From NCBI GenBank assembly GCA_021823305.1, contig JAKAOE010000023.1:1-10821 (forward strand): a DNA stretch of 10,821 nucleotides, read 5' to 3'. This DNA is from Acidobacteriota bacterium (GTDB lineage Bacteria; Acidobacteriota; Terriglobia; Terriglobales; SCQP01). Positions 1,149 to 10,821 of this stretch are shown one piece after another. A program made the position numbers and the translations under genes. The notes under the pieces are model-generated. The model was not told the origin of the DNA and made no database searches. It saw only the letters and a list, made by a program, of their open reading frames with translations. Numbering within the stretch: the stretch's first letter is position 1; each line of letters begins with the position of its first letter.

Positions 1149-1544
1149 TTAGAAGCCCGGGTTCTTGAGGGCTTCCAGGCGGGTCAGCGCGGTGCGATAG
1201 TGGCCGGCCTGATAGGCGCTCAAGCGCAGCAGCTCGCGTTCCAAGCCGTCGGAATCGGGGCGCATCCAGCGGGCCAGGCGCAGCAGGTGGAAGTACATCT
1301 GCAGCCAGACTTCCTGGCGGAGGTAGACCGCCGGGGCGATTTCGGCCAGCTTGGCGTGCACCAGCTTGAAATCCTCGACCAGGCGCGGCGACTCCGGCAG
1401 CACGCCCTCGCGCCGCAGGCGGTCCAGCTCGGTCATGTCGGAGTCGGTGATGCGCACGTGGGCGAAAGCGAACGTGGTGTACGCCAGCACCGAGAAGCCG
1501 ATCACCAGGACCAGGATCGATAGGAAGAGGGAACCGTCTACCAT
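1149..1544 (-). CDS. Small single-pass membrane protein, unknown function
   Basis: The product is a 131-residue protein that I do not recognise. It opens with one hydrophobic helix (about residues 6-29, LFLSILVLVIGFSVLAYTTF). The remaining roughly 100 residues are soluble, predicted helical, rich in Leu, Arg and Glu, and contain a Trp/Tyr-bearing stretch (EVWLQMYFHLLRLARWM). This looks like an N-terminally anchored protein with a helical soluble domain. The ATG is preceded by AGGAGG with a 4-nt spacer (1549-1554), which fixes the start. The start overlaps the end of the upstream seven-helix gene by 7 bp, so the two are very likely co-transcribed and translationally coupled. The products may act together, but no catalytic motif is visible. 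Confidence 0.75.
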   Translation of the reverse strand: MVDGSLFLSILVLVIGFSVLAYTTFAFAHVRITDSDMTELDRLRREGVLPESPRLVEDFKLVHAKLAEIAPAVYLRQEVWLQMYFHLLRLARWMRPDSDGLERELLRLSAYQAGHYRTALTRLEALKNPGF

Positions 1545-2263
1545 GCGCCCTCCTGCCGCAGCCGGGCGATTGCCGCCGCCTCGGCGCGCGCGCGCTCGAA
1601 CCGGGCTTCCGGCTCGGGCACCACCAGCGAATAGGCGATCAGCCCCATGCCCAGCAGGCTGGTCATGGGCGCGCCATAGTAAAGCAGCGTGTGGAACGCG
1701 GGAAGGATCGCGTTCAGGGAGTAGACCACCGCGCCCGAGCTGTAAAGGAAGCTGAAGGCCAGCACCACGCGCCGGAACCGCAGCCCCGGCACCTGCAGGA
1801 CGTTCATCCCCACCGCCAGCACAATCGCCAGGATCATGCCGAGGAAGGAGAAGTTCTGCTCCATCTCGTAGCTGAAGAAGACCGTCGTCAGGCCGCCGCG
1901 CATCAGGTAGACCAGCAGTCCGCTGACCGCGGCCAGACCGGTGAACAGGAGGATGGCGCCGGTGCGCAGGCCAGGCAGCTTGACCGAGGATTTTTCAAAG
2001 GCCAACTCGACTAAGCGAGCCAGCACGAAGTAGCCGAAAACCACGATCGCGAGATCGGTGCCGAAATAGGCGTACTTGTACTGCGCCGAGCGGTAGCCGA
2101 AATGGAGGAGCGTGAAATGAACCCCGCAGTTGCCAATAAGGCCCGTGACGAAATACCAGCGCAGCCAGAGCAAGCCGGGGTCCAAGCCACGCCGGAACGT
2201 CGCAGTCAAAGCGACGGCGTTGGCCAGACAGACCGTGAGCCAAATGGCTAAGCTGATACTCAC
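1538..2263 (-). CDS. Seven-helix integral membrane protein, unknown function
   Basis: The product is a 241-residue protein with about seven hydrophobic segments, near residues 3-22, 33-54, 65-87, 101-121, 137-157, 165-187 and 192-214. A charged C-terminal tail of about 27 residues (EPEARFERARAEAAAIARLRQE) follows and may be cytoplasmic or coiled. I see no transporter, kinase, cyclase or rhodopsin signature; in particular there is no Lys in the last helix to hold retinal. The start is a GTG at 2263 with no strong Shine-Dalgarno. It is chosen because the first helix begins immediately after it and no better upstream start is seen. The gene overlaps the next gene by 7 bp and lies 61 bp downstream of the secreted repeat protein on the same strand. 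A small receptor or sensor-like role is possible but unproven. Confidence 0.75.
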   Translation of the reverse strand: MSISLAIWLTVCLANAVALTATFRRGLDPGLLWLRWYFVTGLIGNCGVHFTLLHFGYRSAQYKYAYFGTDLAIVVFGYFVLARLVELAFEKSSVKLPGLRTGAILLFTGLAAVSGLLVYLMRGGLTTVFFSYEMEQNFSFLGMILAIVLAVGMNVLQVPGLRFRRVVLAFSFLYSSGAVVYSLNAILPAFHTLLYYGAPMTSLLGMGLIAYSLVVPEPEARFERARAEAAAIARLRQEGAW

Positions 2264-2324: not shown

Positions 2325-2852
2325 CTACTTGGCAGCCGCGGCACGCCCCATGGGAGGGGGGTCGCCCAAGCCATTCATCGCAATCAGGCCCATCGGCGGC
2401 GGGTCGCCAAGGCCATTCTTGGCCAGGCCCATCGGCGGTGGGTCGCCGAGGCCATTCTTGGCCAGGCCCATCGGCGGTGGGTCGCCGAGGCCATTCTTGG
2501 CCAGACCCATCGGTGGGGGATCGCCAAGGCCATTCTCGGCGAGGCCCATGGGGGGCGGATCACCAAGGCCGTTCTTGGCCAAGCCCATCGGCGGGGGATC
2601 GCCGAGGCCGTTCTTGGCGAGGCCCATGGGGGGCGGGTCACCGAGGCCGTTCTTGGCCAGGCCCATGGGGGGCGGGTCGCCGAGGCCGTTCTTGGCTACG
2701 AGGCCCATCGGGGGTGGGTCGCCGAGACCGTTGGCGAGGATGGTGGCATGGCTGGCGCCGGCCGGGGCGGAGGCGATCGCCCAGTTCCGCACGCCCATAG
2801 TGGCGGTAAGCAGAACAGCGGCGAAGGTGAGGGCTCGTAAGGTCGAATTCAT
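2325..2852 (-). CDS. Predicted secreted protein made of ten NGLGDPPPMG repeats
   Basis: The product is a 175-residue protein that I do not recognise. Residues 1 to about 29 look like a Sec signal peptide: MNSTLRA, then a hydrophobic core LTFAAVLLTATMGV, then a plausible AIASA/PAG cleavage site. From residue 41 the chain is ten copies of NGLGDPPPMG. Most are joined by LAK; variants are LVAK, LAE and LIAM, and the tail is RAAAAK. The start at 2852 is preferred over an in-frame upstream ATG at 2921 because GGGAG lies 6 nt upstream and the signal peptide begins there. The minus strand is taken as coding because differences between repeats are synonymous on this strand but swap Ile/Met and Lys/Arg on the other. 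Possible roles are a structural or surface protein, or a precursor cut into identical peptides at the LAK linkers; neither is shown. Confidence 0.75.
   Translation of the reverse strand: MNSTLRALTFAAVLLTATMGVRNWAIASAPAGASHATILANGLGDPPPMGLVAKNGLGDPPPMGLAKNGLGDPPPMGLAKNGLGDPPPMGLAKNGLGDPPPMGLAENGLGDPPPMGLAKNGLGDPPPMGLAKNGLGDPPPMGLAKNGLGDPPPMGLIAMNGLGDPPPMGRAAAAK
2346..2732 (-). repeat. Ten tandem 39-bp (13-codon) repeats inside the secreted-protein gene
   Basis: Ten units are visible. Eight have the basic 13-codon length or differ only in the linker, and the first and ninth carry one extra codon. The ten-residue core NGLGDPPPMG is identical in all copies, while codons vary (CCG/CCC/CCA for Pro, GAC/GAT for Asp, AAT/AAC for Asn, CTT/CTC for Leu). 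The period is a multiple of three, which keeps several frames open on both strands and produces overlapping spurious ORFs. Confidence 0.95.
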
Positions 2853-3078: not shown

Positions 3079-4101
3079 TTAACGGGCGTGGAAGTAGCGA
3101 ACCAGGCGGACGTAGGCGTCCACCGCGGCGACCAATTCTGACTTGAGAATGTGCTCGTCGGAGGTGTGGGCGAGGTGAATGGAGCCGGGCCCGAACAAGA
3201 CCGGGCGTCCCCAGGCGCTGAGGTTGGGAATGTCGGTGCCGAAGGCCACCACGCCTGTGGCGAAGCCCGGCGCGGTCTCGAGGCGGATGGGAGGGAACTC
3301 GAGAACGAACTCGTGCTCGACGCCCGCGGCGGCCAGAGCAGCGGCGATATCGGCCTTGAGGGGGGCGGAGTCGGCGACCAGGCGGATCATGACTTCGGCT
3401 TCAGCTTCATCGGGGATGACGTTGGGGGCGCGGCCGCCGCGCAAGGTGCCGACGTTGAGCGTGGTGGGGCCGAGCACGGGATCGGCGGGTAAGGGCAGGC
3501 GGCGCAACCGCTCCAGGCCGTCGAGCAGCTTGGTGATCGCCGACTCGCCCAGTTCGGGGTAGGCGGAATGGGCGCAGCGGCCGTGGGCGCGCAGGTTGAG
3601 CCGCAGCACGCCCTTGCCGGCGCGGATGAGGCGGCTTTCGGTGGGCTCGCCGTTGATCAGCCAGCGCGCGCCCTGCGGCCGCAGGTTGGCGGCGAGGGCG
3701 CCGGCGCTGTTGCGCTCCTCGCCCACGACAAAGAGCAGGCCAAAGCCGTCGTCGCCGGCACGCGCCAGCTCGAGCGCGGCGAAGATCATGGCGGCGACGA
3801 TGCCCTTGGCGTCGCAGGCGCCGCGGCCGTAAATCGCACCGGCCTCCTCGCGCGAGGGGAAGAAGGGCGGCACGGTGTCGAGATGGGTGCTGAGGACGGC
3901 GTGCAAGGGCGCGCCGGCGGGCAGGCGGCGGGCGAAGACGTTGGTGCGGCCAGGCTCGACCGGCCAGCGCTCGACCGCGAAGCCGCCGGCGCGCTCGAGA
4001 AACGCGGCGGCCTTTTCACCGGCTTCGCCCTCGCGCCCGGTGGTCGAATCCACATCCACCAGCTCGCGCAAAAAACGGAACAGTTTATCCTCGTTCTGCA
4101 T
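3079..4101 (-). CDS. M20-family zinc metallopeptidase / N-deacylase (ArgE/DapE/CPG2-like)
   Basis: The product is a 340-residue cytoplasmic hydrolase of the M20 family, whose members use two zinc ions to cleave N-acyl or peptide amide bonds. Metal and catalytic motifs seen: STHLDTVP (His73, Asp75), GRGACDAKG (Asp97, bridging ligand), GEERNSAG (Glu128 general base, Glu129 ligand), NGEPTE (Glu152) and the C-terminal AHTSDEH (His312). The central lid or dimerisation domain is recognisable from GKGVLRLNLRAHGRCAHSAYP onward. The length suits the shorter ArgE/DapE-type members. The substrate cannot be assigned, and no arginine or lysine biosynthesis gene is nearby. I chose the ATG at 4101; ATGs at 4110 and 4155 are also in frame, and GGGAG precedes 4110 by only 2 nt and 4101 by 11 nt. 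The 5' end meets the divergent hydrolase on a shared CATG. Confidence 0.9.
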   Translation of the reverse strand: MQNEDKLFRFLRELVDVDSTTGREGEAGEKAAAFLERAGGFAVERWPVEPGRTNVFARRLPAGAPLHAVLSTHLDTVPPFFPSREEAGAIYGRGACDAKGIVAAMIFAALELARAGDDGFGLLFVVGEERNSAGALAANLRPQGARWLINGEPTESRLIRAGKGVLRLNLRAHGRCAHSAYPELGESAITKLLDGLERLRRLPLPADPVLGPTTLNVGTLRGGRAPNVIPDEAEAEVMIRLVADSAPLKADIAAALAAAGVEHEFVLEFPPIRLETAPGFATGVVAFGTDIPNLSAWGRPVLFGPGSIHLAHTSDEHILKSELVAAVDAYVRLVRYFHAR

Positions 4102-4741
4102 GTCTCGCATCACTCCCGGCACGTTCCCCGGCCCGGCCGGGCAGGTGGAGTTCATCTTAAACGAGCCCGATGGCGGGCCGCCGCGGGCGGCGGCGGTGAT
4201 CTGCCATCCGCATCCGCTCTACGGCGGCACGCTGCATACGCGGATTGTCTACCAGACGGCGCAGGTGATGCTGGGGCTGGGTTGGCCGGTGCTGCGCTTC
4301 AACTTTCGCGGGGTGGGCCGCAGCGCCGGCGCCTACGATCACGGGCGCGGCGAGCAGGCGGACGCGCGGGCGGCGATGGCCTACCTGCGTTCGCTCTATC
4401 CGGTGCCGCTGACGCTGACGGGGTTTTCCTTCGGTGCGATGGTGGTGGCGAGGCTGCTGGCGGCGGAGGCGCCGGCGGAAGTGGCGCGGGCGGTGCTGTT
4501 GGGATTGCCGGTGGACCGGGAAGAGATTCCGGCGGATTGGAAGTGGCGCGGGCCGAAGCTGATGATCTCGGGCGAGCGCGACGAGTTCGCCAGCGTGGCG
4601 GGCCTGAACGCCTACTTCGCCCGCCTGGCGGAGCCGAAGGCCTGCGTCTGGATCCCGGGCGGAGATCACTTCATGGCGCCGCGGCTCGATCAGTACCGCA
4701 GCGCGCTGCGGCTGGGGCTGGTGGCGATGCTGGCGGGATGA
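4100..4741 (+). CDS. Alpha/beta hydrolase (CHPHPLYGG type, serine hydrolase)
   Basis: The product is a 213-residue cytoplasmic alpha/beta hydrolase. It carries the hallmarks of a small dienelactone-hydrolase-like bacterial family of uncertain substrate: CHPHPLYGGTLH (35-46), then FNFRGVGRS (68-75). The nucleophile elbow is GFSFG with Ser110, and the likely acid and base are Asp161 in GERDEF and His190 in GGDHFM, giving a complete triad. ATG 4100 is chosen because FPGPAGQVEF just after it resembles the usual beginning of this family. A GTG at 4145 is a weaker alternative, and no clear Shine-Dalgarno precedes either. The gene is divergent from the M20 enzyme with overlapping starts and converges on the ntrX-like gene with a 12-bp gap. 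An esterase or hydrolase of a small metabolite is likely; the substrate is unknown. Confidence 0.88.
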   Translation: MSRITPGTFPGPAGQVEFILNEPDGGPPRAAAVICHPHPLYGGTLHTRIVYQTAQVMLGLGWPVLRFNFRGVGRSAGAYDHGRGEQADARAAMAYLRSLYPVPLTLTGFSFGAMVVARLLAAEAPAEVARAVLLGLPVDREEIPADWKWRGPKLMISGERDEFASVAGLNAYFARLAEPKACVWIPGGDHFMAPRLDQYRSALRLGLVAMLAG

Positions 4742-4753
4742 GGGAGCGCCGGA

Positions 4754-6112
<1,359 letters not shown>

Positions 6113-6132
6113 AGACGTATTTTACGGGGATT

Positions 6133-6171
6133 GATCCGGAGGGAGGGCGGCGCCGCGCCGCGCCACGGATC
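6133..6171 (-). other. Hairpin in the ntrY-ntrX gap
   Basis: GATCCG (6133-6138) and CGGATC (6166-6171) are perfect 6-bp arms around a very GC-rich interior containing GGCGGCGCC. The structure begins inside the ntrY-like stop codon and fills most of the 57-bp gap before the ntrX-like start. It may stabilise or attenuate the message; no T-tract follows. Confidence 0.35.
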
Positions 6172-8353
6172 AGTCGGGGACGGGGAGTTCGACGATGAAG
6201 CGGGCGCCGAGGGGGGAGTTGTCCTCGGCGCGGAGGGCGCCGCCATTCTCCTCGAGGATGCGCTGGGCGATGGCGAGGCCGAGGCCGGTGCCGCGCGCCT
6301 TGGTGGAGTAGTAGGGCAGGAAGAGGCGCTGCTTGTCGCCGGCGGGGAGGCCGCGGCCGGTGTCGGCGACCACGGCTTCGACGCTGCCGTCGAGGGCCTG
6401 GGTGGCGAGGGTGAGCTGGCGGTAGGGTGAGGCGCTCATCGCCTCGGCGGCATTGTCGATCAGGTTGAGGAAGACGCGCTTCATGTCCTCGGGGTCGAGC
6501 GTGAGGGACGGGAGGGGGTCGAAGCGGGTGCGAATCTCGATGCCATCCAGGCGGCCGTCGAAGGCGCGCAGGGCGCGCTCAATGATTTCGTTGAGGTCGC
6601 AGGCCACCGGCTGGGCGTGGGGAAAGCGGGCGAAGGCGCTGAAATCCTCCACCAGGCGCTCGAGCGAGCGCACCTCGGCCTCGATGGTGGCGGCGCACTC
6701 GGCGATCACGGCGGGCAGTTCGGCGCCCGAGGATGGCCCGGCCAGGCGCCGGCGGATGCGCTGGGCGGAGAGGGCGATGGGGGTGAGCGGGTTCTTGATC
6801 TCGTGCGCGATGCGCTGCGCGACCTCGCGCCAGGCCGCGGTCTTCTGGATGCGGAGCAGGTCGGTGAGGTCCTCCAGCACCAGCACGTAGCCGGCCCAGG
6901 CGCGGCGGCGGGGCCGGCGCTCGCCGGCGGGAGTGGCGGCGGGACCGGCGGGGATGGCGGCGACGGTGGCGGCCAGAGTGAGTTGGCGTCCGCCGGCGGC
7001 GGCGACCTCGAGCTGGCCGGTGGCGGCGGGCCAGCGCTCGGACTTGCGCAACAGGTGATGGATTTCGCGCAGGCTGGCGGCGTCGAAGAGCTCGTCCAGG
7101 CGCCGGGGCGGCGCGGGCTCGGCGGCGGCGCGGGCCGGCGGCTCGCGCCCCGGGCCGAAGAGGCGGGCGACGGCGGGGTTCAGGCGTTCGATGCGGTGCT
7201 CGGGATCGAGCGAGATCACCGCCGAGGGGGTGTGTTCGAGCAGGGTCTCGGTGTATTGGCGGCGGGCTTCGAGTTCGCGGCGCGAGGCCTCGATCTGGCT
7301 GCGGTTGGCCTCGAGCTCGGCGGCCATGCGGTTGAAGGAGTCGAGCACCTCGACGATCTCGTCCTTGCCCGCCGGGGGCGGCGCCTTGACGCGGTAGGCG
7401 AGGTTGCCGCGCGAAATTTCGCGCGTGGCCGCGGCCAGTTCGCCCATCGGCACGGTCACCTGTTTGGAGAGATAGAGCGCCATCCAGGTGGCGCCGAACA
7501 GGATCGCGAGCGTGAGCAGCAACAGGTAGCCGGTGTAGAGCAGCTTGAGCGAGCGCCGTTCGCGCGCCAGGCGGTCGTAGCGGTCCCGCGCCGCGGCCAG
7601 GCGCGCCAGTTGGGCGGAGAGCGCCGCCGGCAGGGGGAGGCCGAATTCAAGCTGGCCGCGCGCGACGGCGGCGTGGGTGAGGAGGAAGGTGCGCCCGCCG
7701 AATTGCGCGCTGCGCGCCTCCGGCTGGGGCACATAGCCGGGTGGGGGCGAGCCGATGCGGGCGCGGACGCCGCCGTGGGCGTCGAGCAGCACGGCGAAGC
7801 CGCCGTCGCCCAGCGGCTGATGGCGCGCCAGCGCGCGCTGCGCCGCGCTCCAGTCGGACTGGCGCGCCGCCGACTCCAGGGCGGGGTCGGTGGCGAGCGT
7901 CTTGGCCTCGCCGGCGGCGCTATGGCCGGCGAAGGAGGTGAGCAGGTCGAGCAGGCCCTGGTTGGCGTCGCGCACGTCCACCACCGGCTGGCTGAACCAT
8001 TTGTCGAGGGTGCGGTTGATCAGCCCGTAGGTGAAGGCGAACATGCACAGCACCGGGGTCAGGCTGAGCGCCAGGGCGCCGATCACCAGCTTGGTGCGGA
8101 ACTGGGCGCCGAGCACGTTGGCGCGGCGCTCGGCGTAGAGCTTGACCACCTGGCGCGCCAGCACCAGGGTGAGGATCACCGTGCCCAGGAAACTGAGCGT
8201 GGAGATGACGAACAGCAGCCAGGTGTTTTCGGTGCTGGGGGTGTAGCGCAGGCTGAAGGCCTGCGGCCAGAACAGCACCACCACCAGCAGCGTGAGCATC
8301 AGGCCGAGGATCCAGACCCTGCGGCGGCGGGCCGGGCTGGCGGCGGAGGTCAT
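6170..8353 (-). CDS. ntrY: NtrY-like membrane sensor histidine kinase
   Basis: The product is a 727-residue inner-membrane kinase that should phosphorylate the adjacent NtrX-like regulator. It has three N-terminal hydrophobic helices (about 13-33, 45-69, 88-112). An extracytoplasmic region of roughly 150 residues follows, then a fourth helix (about 271-295). After that come a HAMP linker (about 296-350), a coiled segment and a PAS domain (about 365-500, interrupted by Ala/Pro-rich low-complexity stretches near 402-418 and 468-484). The H-box is RIAHEIKNPLTP with His517, the N-box LIDNAAEAMS has Asn634, and the G boxes are DTGRGLP and GTGLGLAI. The four-helix layout and H-box fit NtrY. The ATG at 8353 overlaps the upstream glycosylase stop as ATGA, without its own Shine-Dalgarno, so translation is probably coupled. 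An in-frame open stretch upstream of this ATG has no kinase features and overlaps the glycosylase. Confidence 0.93.
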   Translation of the reverse strand: MTSAASPARRRRVWILGLMLTLLVVVLFWPQAFSLRYTPSTENTWLLFVISTLSFLGTVILTLVLARQVVKLYAERRANVLGAQFRTKLVIGALALSLTPVLCMFAFTYGLINRTLDKWFSQPVVDVRDANQGLLDLLTSFAGHSAAGEAKTLATDPALESAARQSDWSAAQRALARHQPLGDGGFAVLLDAHGGVRARIGSPPPGYVPQPEARSAQFGGRTFLLTHAAVARGQLEFGLPLPAALSAQLARLAAARDRYDRLARERRSLKLLYTGYLLLLTLAILFGATWMALYLSKQVTVPMGELAAATREISRGNLAYRVKAPPPAGKDEIVEVLDSFNRMAAELEANRSQIEASRRELEARRQYTETLLEHTPSAVISLDPEHRIERLNPAVARLFGPGREPPARAAAEPAPPRRLDELFDAASLREIHHLLRKSERWPAATGQLEVAAAGGRQLTLAATVAAIPAGPAATPAGERRPRRRAWAGYVLVLEDLTDLLRIQKTAAWREVAQRIAHEIKNPLTPIALSAQRIRRRLAGPSSGAELPAVIAECAATIEAEVRSLERLVEDFSAFARFPHAQPVACDLNEIIERALRAFDGRLDGIEIRTRFDPLPSLTLDPEDMKRVFLNLIDNAAEAMSASPYRQLTLATQALDGSVEAVVADTGRGLPAGDKQRLFLPYYSTKARGTGLGLAIAQRILEENGGALRAEDNSPLGARFIVELPVPD

Positions 8354-9000
8354 GGGCGTACGGCGGGCAGCAGCGGGCGCAGCGGGCAGGCGGCGCAGTC
8401 GGGCCGGCGCTTGCGGCAATAGCGTTTGGCGGTTTCCACCATCCAGGCGTGCCAATGGCGGTAGCGGCGCGCCGAGGGCGGCAGTTGGGCGGCGATCCAG
8501 GCGCGGTCGAGCGGCAGGCGGTGGCGGGTGAAGATGCGGCGCGTGTAGGCATCCACCACGAAACTGGGGTGGCCGGCCGCGAACAGCAGGATGGCGTCGG
8601 CGGTCTCCTCGCCGATGCCCTCGCGCGCCAGCAACTGGCGGCGCACCTCGGCGGTGGGCAGACGGAAGAGGCGGCTGAGGCTGCCGGCGTGTTCCCGGCG
8701 CAGCCAGGCGAGCAGCGCCTTGAGCCGGCGCGCCTTCTGCCGCCAGCATCCGGAACTGCGGATCAGGCGGCCGAGTTCGGCTTCATCCAGGCGTTCGAGG
8801 CCGGCCTGGCTGAGGCGGCCGGCGGCGCGCAAGGCCGCCATGGCGAGCGCCACGTTGGCCCACCCGGTGTTCTGCGCGAGCAGCGCGCTGACCATGATCT
8901 CCAGCCGCGTGCGGCCCGGCCACCAGCGGTCGAGCGCGGGCGGAAATGCTGAGTGGGCGCGCAGCGCGGCTTCGTAGGCGGCTAGGCTGGCTCGCGGCAC
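8350..9000 (-). CDS. Endonuclease III-like HhH-GPD DNA glycosylase
   Basis: The product is a 216-residue base-excision repair glycosylase of the HhH-GPD superfamily. Seen motifs are LLAQNTGWANV (41-50), the helix-hairpin-helix GIGEETAD (128-135) and the catalytic-Asp segment FVVDAYTRRIF (Asp150). The residue matching the lyase Lys of E. coli Nth (GVGRKTAN) is Glu132, which suggests a glycosylase without the classical Nth lyase chemistry. The C-terminal iron-sulfur motif shows only three cysteines (195, 202, 205); the expected fourth position, six residues later, is Leu211. The GTG start at 9000 is chosen because family similarity begins right after it. In-frame ATG 9072 and TTG 9090 would add residues encoded by hairpin-rich DNA that looks non-coding. 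This is the first gene of an apparent three-gene operon with the NtrY/NtrX pair. Confidence 0.85.
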   Translation of the reverse strand: MPRASLAAYEAALRAHSAFPPALDRWWPGRTRLEIMVSALLAQNTGWANVALAMAALRAAGRLSQAGLERLDEAELGRLIRSSGCWRQKARRLKALLAWLRREHAGSLSRLFRLPTAEVRRQLLAREGIGEETADAILLFAAGHPSFVVDAYTRRIFTRHRLPLDRAWIAAQLPPSARRYRHWHAWMVETAKRYCRKRRPDCAACPLRPLLPAVRP

Positions 9001-9032
9001 GGCGTTTCCCAGGCCCAGCTTAGCAGGGTGGC

Positions 9033-9051
9033 GGGGTGGCACGGCCACTCC
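9033..9051. repeat. Hairpin 1 of the gap/glycosylase intergenic cluster
   Basis: GGGGTGGC-ACG-GCCACTCC can form eight pairs, one of them a G-U wobble, with a 3-nt loop. Confidence 0.5.
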
Positions 9052-9080
9052 TGATTTGGGACGCCCTCCCATTGCCACCC

Positions 9081-9098
9081 CAGAGCGCAAGCGCTCTG
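9081..9098. repeat. Hairpin 2, REP-like palindrome
   Basis: CAGAGCGC-AA-GCGCTCTG is a perfect 8-bp palindrome around two bases, flanked by CCC and TGGG that could extend the stem with a bulge. Confidence 0.65.
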
Positions 9099-9103
9099 TG
9101 GGC

Positions 9104-9119
9104 CCCGACGTTGGTCGGG
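9104..9119. repeat. Hairpin 3, REP-like palindrome
   Basis: CCCGAC-GTTG-GTCGGG gives a perfect 6-bp stem with a 4-nt loop, five bases after hairpin 2. Confidence 0.6.
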
Positions 9120-9140
9120 CTGTAGCCGAGCTTCGATCCC

Positions 9141-9185
9141 CGGCAACGGACGCCTGCTGGCGCTCAGGGCGTCTCCAGGTTGCCG
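9141..9185. repeat. Hairpin 4, long imperfect inverted repeat
   Basis: The outer arms are CGGCAAC (9141-9147) and GTTGCCG (9179-9185). The inner arms are GACGCCTG (9149-9156) and CAGGGCGTC (9165-9173), with one bulged G. Together they make a two-part stem of about 15 bp over 45 bases. Confidence 0.6.
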
Positions 9186-9287
9186 TGTAACGAGGCGAAT
9201 CGGGCCGCGGGCTGATCCATTTGGCGTCCCGCGGTCACAGGCGGGGCGGCGCGGATTCCGGTACCATAAAGCTCCGGGAGGAAGACT

Positions 9288-10292
9288 ATGGCATTGCGGG
9301 TGGGCGTCAACGGTTTTGGCCGCATCGGGCGCAACTTTTTTCGTGCAGCGCTCGGCCATCCCGCCTTCGAGATCGTCGCGATCAACGACATTACGTCGCC
9401 GGCTACGCTGGCGCATCTGCTCAAGTACGACTCCATCCTGGGCAACCTCGCCGGCGAGGTGACGGCGGGCGAGAACTGGATCCGGGTAAACGGGCGGCAG
9501 GTGCCGGTATGGTCGCAGCCCGACCCGGAGAAGCTGGACTGGGACAGCGTGGGCGTCGGGGCGGTGGCGGAGTGCAGCGGCAAGTTCAACACCGCCGCGG
9601 GCGCGGGCAAGCACCTGCGCGGCGGGGTGAAGCAGGTGGTGATCTCGGCGCCCGCCGGCGACGCCGACGTCACGCTGGTGCTGGGCGTGAACGACAGCGC
9701 CTACGATCCGGCGAAGCATCGCATCCTTTCCAACGCCAGTTGCACCACCAACTGCCTGGCGCCGGTGGCGAAGGTGGTGGACGACAGCTTCGGGATCCTG
9801 TCCGGCGCGATGACCACGGTCCACTCCTACACCAACGATCAGCGCATCCTTGATCTGCCGCACAAGGACAAGCGCCGTGCGCGCGCGGCGGCGATCAACC
9901 TGATCCCCACCTCCACCGGGGCGGCCAAGGCGCTGCACTTGGTGATCCCGCGGCTGAAGGGCAAGCTCGACGGGTTTGCGCTGCGCGTGCCGACGCCCAA
10001 CGTTTCGGTGGTGGATCTGACGGTGTGGGTGGAGAAGGAGACCAGCGCCGAGGCGGTCAACGCGGCGCTGCGGACGGCGGCCGCGGGGCCGATGCGCGGC
10101 ATTCTGGGCTATGAGGAGGAGGAGCTGGTTTCGAGCGACTATCGCGGCGACGAGCGCTCCTCGATCGTGGACGCCAAACTGACGCGGGTGATCGGCGGAC
10201 GGTGCGTGAAGGTGGTGGCCTGGTACGACAACGAGTGGGGCTACTCCTGCCGTATGCGCGACCTGTTCGCCCGGCTGGCGGGAGGGCGCTGA
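9288..10292 (+). CDS. gap: Glyceraldehyde-3-phosphate dehydrogenase
   Basis: The product is a 334-residue cytoplasmic glycolytic enzyme that oxidises glyceraldehyde-3-phosphate to 1,3-bisphosphoglycerate with NAD. The N-terminal Rossmann motif is VGVNGFGRIGRNFFRA, and the Asp of AINDIT is the residue that favours NAD over NADP. The active-site Cys is in SNASCTTNCLAP, and the later conserved runs TTVHSYTNDQ, NLIPTSTGAAKA and WYDNEWGYS are intact. LDLPHKD keeps the Leu-Pro pair typical of NAD-specific enzymes. Full length agrees with the family. The start is fixed by GGAGG 6 nt upstream and by the canonical N-terminus. The next gene, pgk, encodes the following step and begins only 6 bp after the stop, so the two form an operon. 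Confidence 0.98.
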   Translation: MALRVGVNGFGRIGRNFFRAALGHPAFEIVAINDITSPATLAHLLKYDSILGNLAGEVTAGENWIRVNGRQVPVWSQPDPEKLDWDSVGVGAVAECSGKFNTAAGAGKHLRGGVKQVVISAPAGDADVTLVLGVNDSAYDPAKHRILSNASCTTNCLAPVAKVVDDSFGILSGAMTTVHSYTNDQRILDLPHKDKRRARAAAINLIPTSTGAAKALHLVIPRLKGKLDGFALRVPTPNVSVVDLTVWVEKETSAEAVNAALRTAAAGPMRGILGYEEEELVSSDYRGDERSSIVDAKLTRVIGGRCVKVVAWYDNEWGYSCRMRDLFARLAGGR

Positions 10293-10298
10293 GCGGCC

Positions 10299-10821
10299 AT
10301 GGCCAAGCTGACGCTGGCGCAATTGGAACTCGCCAACCGGCTGGTGCTGGCGCGGGTGGACTATAACGTGCCCCTGACCGAGGGGGCCGTGGCCGACGAC
10401 ACCCGCATCGCGGCCACGCTGCCGACGCTGCGCTACCTGCTGCAACGGGAGGCGCGGGTGGTGTTGTGCTCGCATCTGGGGCGGCCCAAGGGCAAGCCGG
10501 ACGCGCGCTACAGCCTGCGGCCGGTGGCGGAGCGGCTGGAGCGCCTGCTGGGGCGCAACGTGGGCTTCTGCCCGGAGACGGTGGGCGCGCGTGCGGCGGA
10601 GATGGCGGCGCGGCTGGAAACGGGCGGCGTGTTGATGGTGGAGAACCTGCGCTTCCAGCCCGGCGAGGAGGCGAATGACCCCGAATTCGCGCGCCAACTG
10701 GCGGAGTTAGGCGAGGTGTTCGTCAACGACGCCTTCGGCGCGGCGCATCGCGCCCACGCTTCGACGGTCGGGGTGACGCGCTACTTTCCGCAGGCGGCGG
10801 CCGGGCTGCTGATGCAGCGCG
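10299..10821 (+). CDS. pgk: Phosphoglycerate kinase, 3'-truncated by the window
   Basis: The first 174 residues of phosphoglycerate kinase are present. The enzyme transfers the phosphate of 1,3-bisphosphoglycerate to ADP, yielding ATP and 3-phosphoglycerate. The N-terminal substrate-binding domain is clear: LARVDYNVPL (a Tyr where Phe is commoner), DDTRI, SHLGRPKG, ENLRFQPGEE and VNDAFGAAHRAHAST. The frame stays open to the last base. The ATG at 10299 follows the gap stop by 6 bp; a GGAGG at 10281-10285 lies within the end of gap, 13 nt away, so translation may be partly coupled. The ADP-binding C-terminal domain is outside the window. Confidence 0.97.
   Translation, partial: MAKLTLAQLELANRLVLARVDYNVPLTEGAVADDTRIAATLPTLRYLLQREARVVLCSHLGRPKGKPDARYSLRPVAERLERLLGRNVGFCPETVGARAAEMAARLETGGVLMVENLRFQPGEEANDPEFARQLAELGEVFVNDAFGAAHRAHASTVGVTRYFPQAAAGLLMQR

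Follow-up and report, generated by a model that had tools for sequence, protein, structure and literature searches.

In the fungal alpha-factor (MF-alpha) system the precursor carries a leader followed by tandem identical units, dibasic Kex2-type processing sites lie between the units, and the partner Ste2 is a seven-transmembrane (7TM) protein with the N-terminus outside and the C-terminus inside (N-out/C-in). Agr/ComX-type quorum sensing of Gram-positive bacteria uses a short secreted peptide that is encoded beside its membrane partners and is lineage-specific in sequence. The cassette described here resembles both in part. It lies in a stretch of 10,821 nt (contig JAKAOE010000023.1, Acidobacteriota bacterium), referred to as the window, and consists of a repeat peptide precursor (gene 1), the 7TM protein p241 (gene 2) and p131, a protein with one transmembrane helix (1-TM; gene 3). 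The cassette is widely conserved, has descended along host families and encodes in-frame repeats under purifying selection. It is read as peptide signal, receptor and transducer because of the leader, the one to ten identical, lineage-specific units, and the adjoining receptor-like 7TM and coupled 1-TM proteins. A lineage-specific pheromone-receptor cassette, in which a secreted multi-copy peptide is sensed by p241 and signals via p131, is regarded as somewhat probable.

Comparison with described systems

By its sequences, the cassette appears to work like alpha-factor/Ste2 in layout without being a member of that system. Alike are the precursor with a leader (whose function is deduced from hydrophobicity) and tandem identical units, and the 7TM partner with N-out/C-in topology, here by prediction only. 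Unlike the fungal system, the peptide and receptor-like genes are adjacent, the host is a bacterium and no sequence relation was found (0 PDB, 0 Pfam matches). Homology to the G protein-coupled receptor (GPCR) superfamily was not detected: none of 21 members of the p241 family (profile A3) matched a 7tm or other Pfam family at E up to 0.1, and p241 matched no PDB sequence at E up to 1. Kex2-type dibasic sites are likewise not seen. Of 134 later copies, only 72 have even one Lys or Arg in the four residues ahead of them and the other 62 have no basic linker; the linkers of the window are mostly LAK, with the variants LAE, LVAK and LIAM. The Lys/Glu-bearing linkers, taken as candidate cleavage sites in an earlier sequence-only reading of the window, are therefore not a general feature.

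The likeness to Agr/ComX extends to a short, presumably secreted peptide encoded beside membrane partners and to lineage-specific peptide sequences, whereas the precursor here is multi-copy and the cassette has no histidine kinase domain. An Agr-type adjacent kinase receptor and protease were not found: p241 and p131 match no Pfam or NCBIfam family, and the kinase and regulator genes of the window, which are genus-level neighbours, were not found close to the cassette in G007 and G015, two genomes of other genera. By tblastn, the only window genes near the peptide gene in these two genomes are p241 and p131, immediately downstream (window genes were sought; genes absent from the window were not systematically sought there). 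This downstream pair, which the sequence-only reading did not mention, accompanies the peptide gene across families.

Multi-core precursors of ribosomally synthesized and post-translationally modified peptides (RiPPs) also hold several core peptides each, as in microviridin (PMC5934393). By this analogy gene 1 would encode a multi-core natural product and p241 a processing or modifying membrane enzyme or an exporter. That is quite improbable: no modifying enzyme was recognised in the conserved cassette or among the nine window proteins scanned (in relatives only window genes were sought), p241 and p131 lack Pfam and NCBIfam matches, and no other window gene follows the peptide into G007 and G015. 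Searches of the open-licence PMC library, with subscription papers outside its scope, turned up no description of such a cassette. None of the three protein families matched a described one; the fungal pheromone mode of working, which the cassette may share, is already known.

The repeat precursor and its relatives

All ten NGLGDPPPMG units that had been claimed for the window are exact, and the gene lies on the minus strand, which had not been given. Among the ten cores there is no amino-acid change, and silent variation occurs at nine of ten core codon positions, only the Met codon being fixed, so that the repeat is more than chance. The program TRF independently placed the DNA array at 2347-2726 (period 39, 9.6 copies, 86% matches). 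The plus strand is also open across the array (2276-2910, open reading frames (ORFs) of 174 and 193 aa). These frames are a by-product of a repeat period divisible by three; the minus-strand reading, including the leader, is kept in relatives. As for the label "secreted", the hydrophobic leader is present and secretion may be presumed from it. The absence of a named family was qualified by a match to the Pfam family GLTT (PF01744; 25.6 bits, cut-off 21). However, no single stretch passes, the protein contains no G-L-T-T, the orthologue L022 reaches 10.2 bits and the other five peptides scanned gave no match; membership was rejected, and the score is treated as a low-complexity, compositional match.

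Table 1. Features of the cassette in the window
Feature	Position	Strand	Remarks
Gene 1, repeat peptide precursor, 175 aa	2325..2852	minus	ATG at 2852, stop ends 2325
Hydrophobic leader, residues 1-24, MNSTLRALTFAAVLLTATMGVRNW	2781..2852	minus	resembles leaders of relatives with different repeats; putative secretion
Array, ten NGLGDPPPMG cores with LAK-type linkers, residues 41-169	2346..2732	minus	TRF and codon comparison
Gene 2, p241, 7TM protein, GPCR-like predicted fold, predicted N-out/C-in	1538..2263	minus	GTG start
Gene 3, p131, one TM helix and helical domain	1149..1544	minus	7-nt overlap with gene 2

Copies were compared pairwise within 61 arrays. The proportions of synonymous (pS) and nonsynonymous (pN) differences were 0.553 and 0.011 in the 5-aa seed, values that are biased since the seed served to find the copies, and 0.483 and 0.129 in the rest of the unit, linkers included, which was not used for finding. 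With pN low and pS high between copies, the array is under selection as a protein, and the selection on the copies is purifying. Tandem repeats arise by slippage, but a non-coding or recent slippage repeat without function is scarcely conceivable here, given pS of 0.48-0.55 against pN of 0.01-0.13 and the conservation of leader and cassette.

Coordinated change of all copies is suggested as well. Between the window and its genus relative G011, pS in p241 is 0.28, lower than the divergence of copies within each array (0.58, 0.52), and core position 3 is Leu in 10 of 10 window copies and Ile in 7 of 7 G011 copies. Comparable are Thr versus Asn in all three copies of L091 and L092, and Ser versus Gly in all three of L076 and L079. 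Among nine close pairs with equal copy number, copies at the same position are nearer between species than copies at other positions in seven (0.54 versus 0.66 in L091/L092), equally distant in L076/L079 and farther in L158/L161, where the core boundaries were set one residue out of register. The sites are few, and pS could be inflated if identical DNA repeats are selected against.

Relatives of the peptide were found by genome searches with the repeat protein: 13 of 298 genomes matched, of which its own genome and five relatives are real. They share a similar leader, and the repeat unit differs in each: NGIGDPPPMG in seven copies in G011 (L021, DAIDIF010000090.1, Acidobacteria bacterium, has the same peptide), NGLGGPPPPQVV-type units in G019, where the contig stops inside the peptide gene, seven SGTGLPIPGSGLAK-type units in G007, two copies of NDGSTLPPPPG in G015 and, in G023, a GGDPFPPPP tail without repetition. 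The matches in G024, G030, G038, G043, G154, G177 and G212 were rejected by eye as repeat-rich frames without a leader. The direct search of 5.8 billion proteins, in which scoring was limited to the 7,994 candidates with the most words in common, yielded one weak and unrelated match (P0001, E 0.46), and tblastn against plasmids returned seven records, all compositional matches. Searching directly with the repeat protein was misleading; homologues with a conserved core, whose absence had been set beforehand as refuting, do exist.

A catalogue was built from 101 oriented p241 loci (G039, the contig-end fragment G023:C70 and ten weak A3-profile matches were left out), of which 91 have 300 nt or more of upstream sequence. 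In 81 of the 91, p241 directly follows an ORF whose N-terminus is hydrophobic and whose tail is rich in Pro; the rule used tail Pro content, preferred the most repeats and was not blind, so that 81 is a catalogue figure. A 5-mer is repeated in 61 of the 81 peptides and in 18 of 1402 control ORFs of the same loci (any ORF of 20-260 aa in neighbouring stretches), a contrast large enough to survive the selection bias of the rule. By exact 5-mer, copy number is 1 (20 peptides), 2 (20), 3 (26), 4 (9), 5 (1), 6 (2), 7 (2) or 10 (1, the window, the longest array). Successive units begin 9-18 aa from each other, except for one spacing of 39, and 57 distinct invariant cores, most commonly 10-12 aa long, occur in the 61 arrays. 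P-x-P is present in 81/81 tails and G-x(1-3)-P-x-P in 73/81. The comparison of repeat number between relatives, with one to ten in-frame, lineage-specific copies, together with purifying selection and single-copy forms, strengthens the earlier idea of a multi-copy precursor.

An extended Pro-rich surface or wall polymer, the other earlier idea, would suit the composition and the variable copy number. It is very improbable: the single-copy versions (20/81), many of them having tails a few dozen residues long, argue against a length-dependent polymer, and the 7TM and 1-TM proteins are constant companions. The foremost competing reading is an unreleased small subunit of the inner membrane, its Pro-rich extracytoplasmic tail regulating or scaffolding p241/p131 and the repeats adding valency. 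The single-copy forms fit such a subunit, a universal cleavage motif is absent (A-x-A in 42/81 peptides, besides the Lys/Arg counts above), and 73/81 retain a loose leader pattern directly following the hydrophobic stretch, as might be the case for a partner-binding anchor. A recognised ligand is the better fit to the lineage-specific turnover of the unit and to the copies apparently changing in a coordinated way, and the unreleased subunit is considered unlikely.

Loci outside the catalogue were inspected by eye. Among the ten with less than 300 nt upstream, six (L102, L114, L120, L125, L142, L150) show an array at the contig edge. Of those missed by the rule (10/91), L073 has a single-copy peptide closely similar to the one at L072, L134 has three copies, and L143 and L157 have arrays open at the contig edge. 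No upstream peptide was seen at L124, L132, L152 and L160, and L105 has a remnant only. L124 (G389) and L132 (G462) are second p241 copies; the other copies, L125 and L129, have a peptide. At L097 (G401) leader and repeats are out of frame with each other, p241 and p131 are open and the close relative L096 is intact, which is either decay or an assembly error. L097, with its two frames, and the remnant at L105 bear on another refuting observation named beforehand, homologues with a broken frame; the 81 peptides are uninformative in this respect, as repeats were sought inside one open frame.

Membrane partners, distribution and descent

Seven helices are predicted for p241, and the charge bias of its loops points to the N-out/C-in topology; its structure model, with a GPCR-like fold, resembles hormone receptors of animals and fungi. 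Fold and topology are both predictions. The gene of p131 often overlaps that of p241. Of the 14 genomes examined in the window's family, 12 carry p241 and 13 carry p131. A large protein database contains 44 relatives of p241, the names given being in every case "hypothetical protein", nine of them from Terriglobales metagenome-assembled genomes. Profile A3 found a match in 90 genomes out of 299 sampled from the class. With the broader profile A4, 81 of the 89 f7 genomes gave a match (E up to 1e-5), a figure that includes a second paralogue group (about 260 aa, E about 1e-7 to 1e-19) distinct from the analysed loci. In the p241 genome search (13/298), G039 was rejected as a chance match inside a 527-aa ORF.

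In a phylum sample the broader profile matched 10 of 297 genomes. By eye, a small leader-plus-Pro peptide lies upstream in nine of the 14 new loci and none in five. Two of the nine, in f6, have repeats (one with unread bases inside), as does one in G002 (f2); six are single-copy, five in G040 and one in G041, both f2. The five p241-like genes of G040 (L197, L204, L206, L207, L208) each have a different single-copy leader peptide upstream; the tails of some of these peptides contain Cys and Pro, and the five may be several parallel channels. A p131 paralogue without p241 or peptide nearby was observed in four genomes of the window's family (L061-L064), where it follows a gene that is TPR-like by eye.

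A tree of p241 with 97 rows requires five changes for the six host families taken together, the minimum possible. The exception is L152 (f7), a long branch that falls among f1, whose clade is weakly supported (77/23). Descent along host families favours a resident function over a mobile bacteriocin. If gene 1 encoded a Pro-rich antimicrobial peptide or a bacteriocin and p241/p131 served for immunity or export, this would account for the strong variation of the unit between lineages; multi-copy Pro-rich precursors are known for insect apidaecins, and small membrane proteins often confer immunity. This reading is nevertheless rather improbable: L152 aside, the tree shows none of the patchy, horizontally moving distribution of bacteriocins, p241 is near-constant in the window's family, PADLOC gave no match for the five proteins tried, and the p241 model resembles receptors.

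The remainder of the window (3079-10821) encodes an M20 peptidase, a hydrolase, an NtrC-type regulator, a histidine kinase, an HhH-GPD protein and GAPDH- and PGK-like proteins. These genes are syntenic in G011 and partly in G019 and G023, and none was found near the cassette in G007 and G015.

Proposed signalling and its meaning

In the proposed pheromone-receptor cassette, the product of gene 1 would be secreted and may then release several copies of one short Gly/Pro-rich peptide. The peptide would be sensed by p241, and p241 would pass the signal to or through p131 with its cytosolic helical domain. A wider proposal is put forward tentatively: that Acidobacteria, in several families of one class, inherit with their hosts a GPCR-fold receptor and a linked multi-copy pheromone as an independent counterpart of alpha-factor/Ste2, in which the ligand copies change together to match the receptor and the 1-TM protein replaces the G protein. 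Acidobacteria are a widespread soil phylum. If the proposal is true, they have a peptide communication system unnamed in Pfam and NCBIfam, and a receptor fold known for eukaryotic peptide ligands occurs in bacteria together with a yeast-type precursor layout. The cassettes would then be a source of natural ligand-receptor pairs and an example of convergent evolution, and signalling in Acidobacteria could be put to the test straight away, since the ligand can be read directly from each genome.
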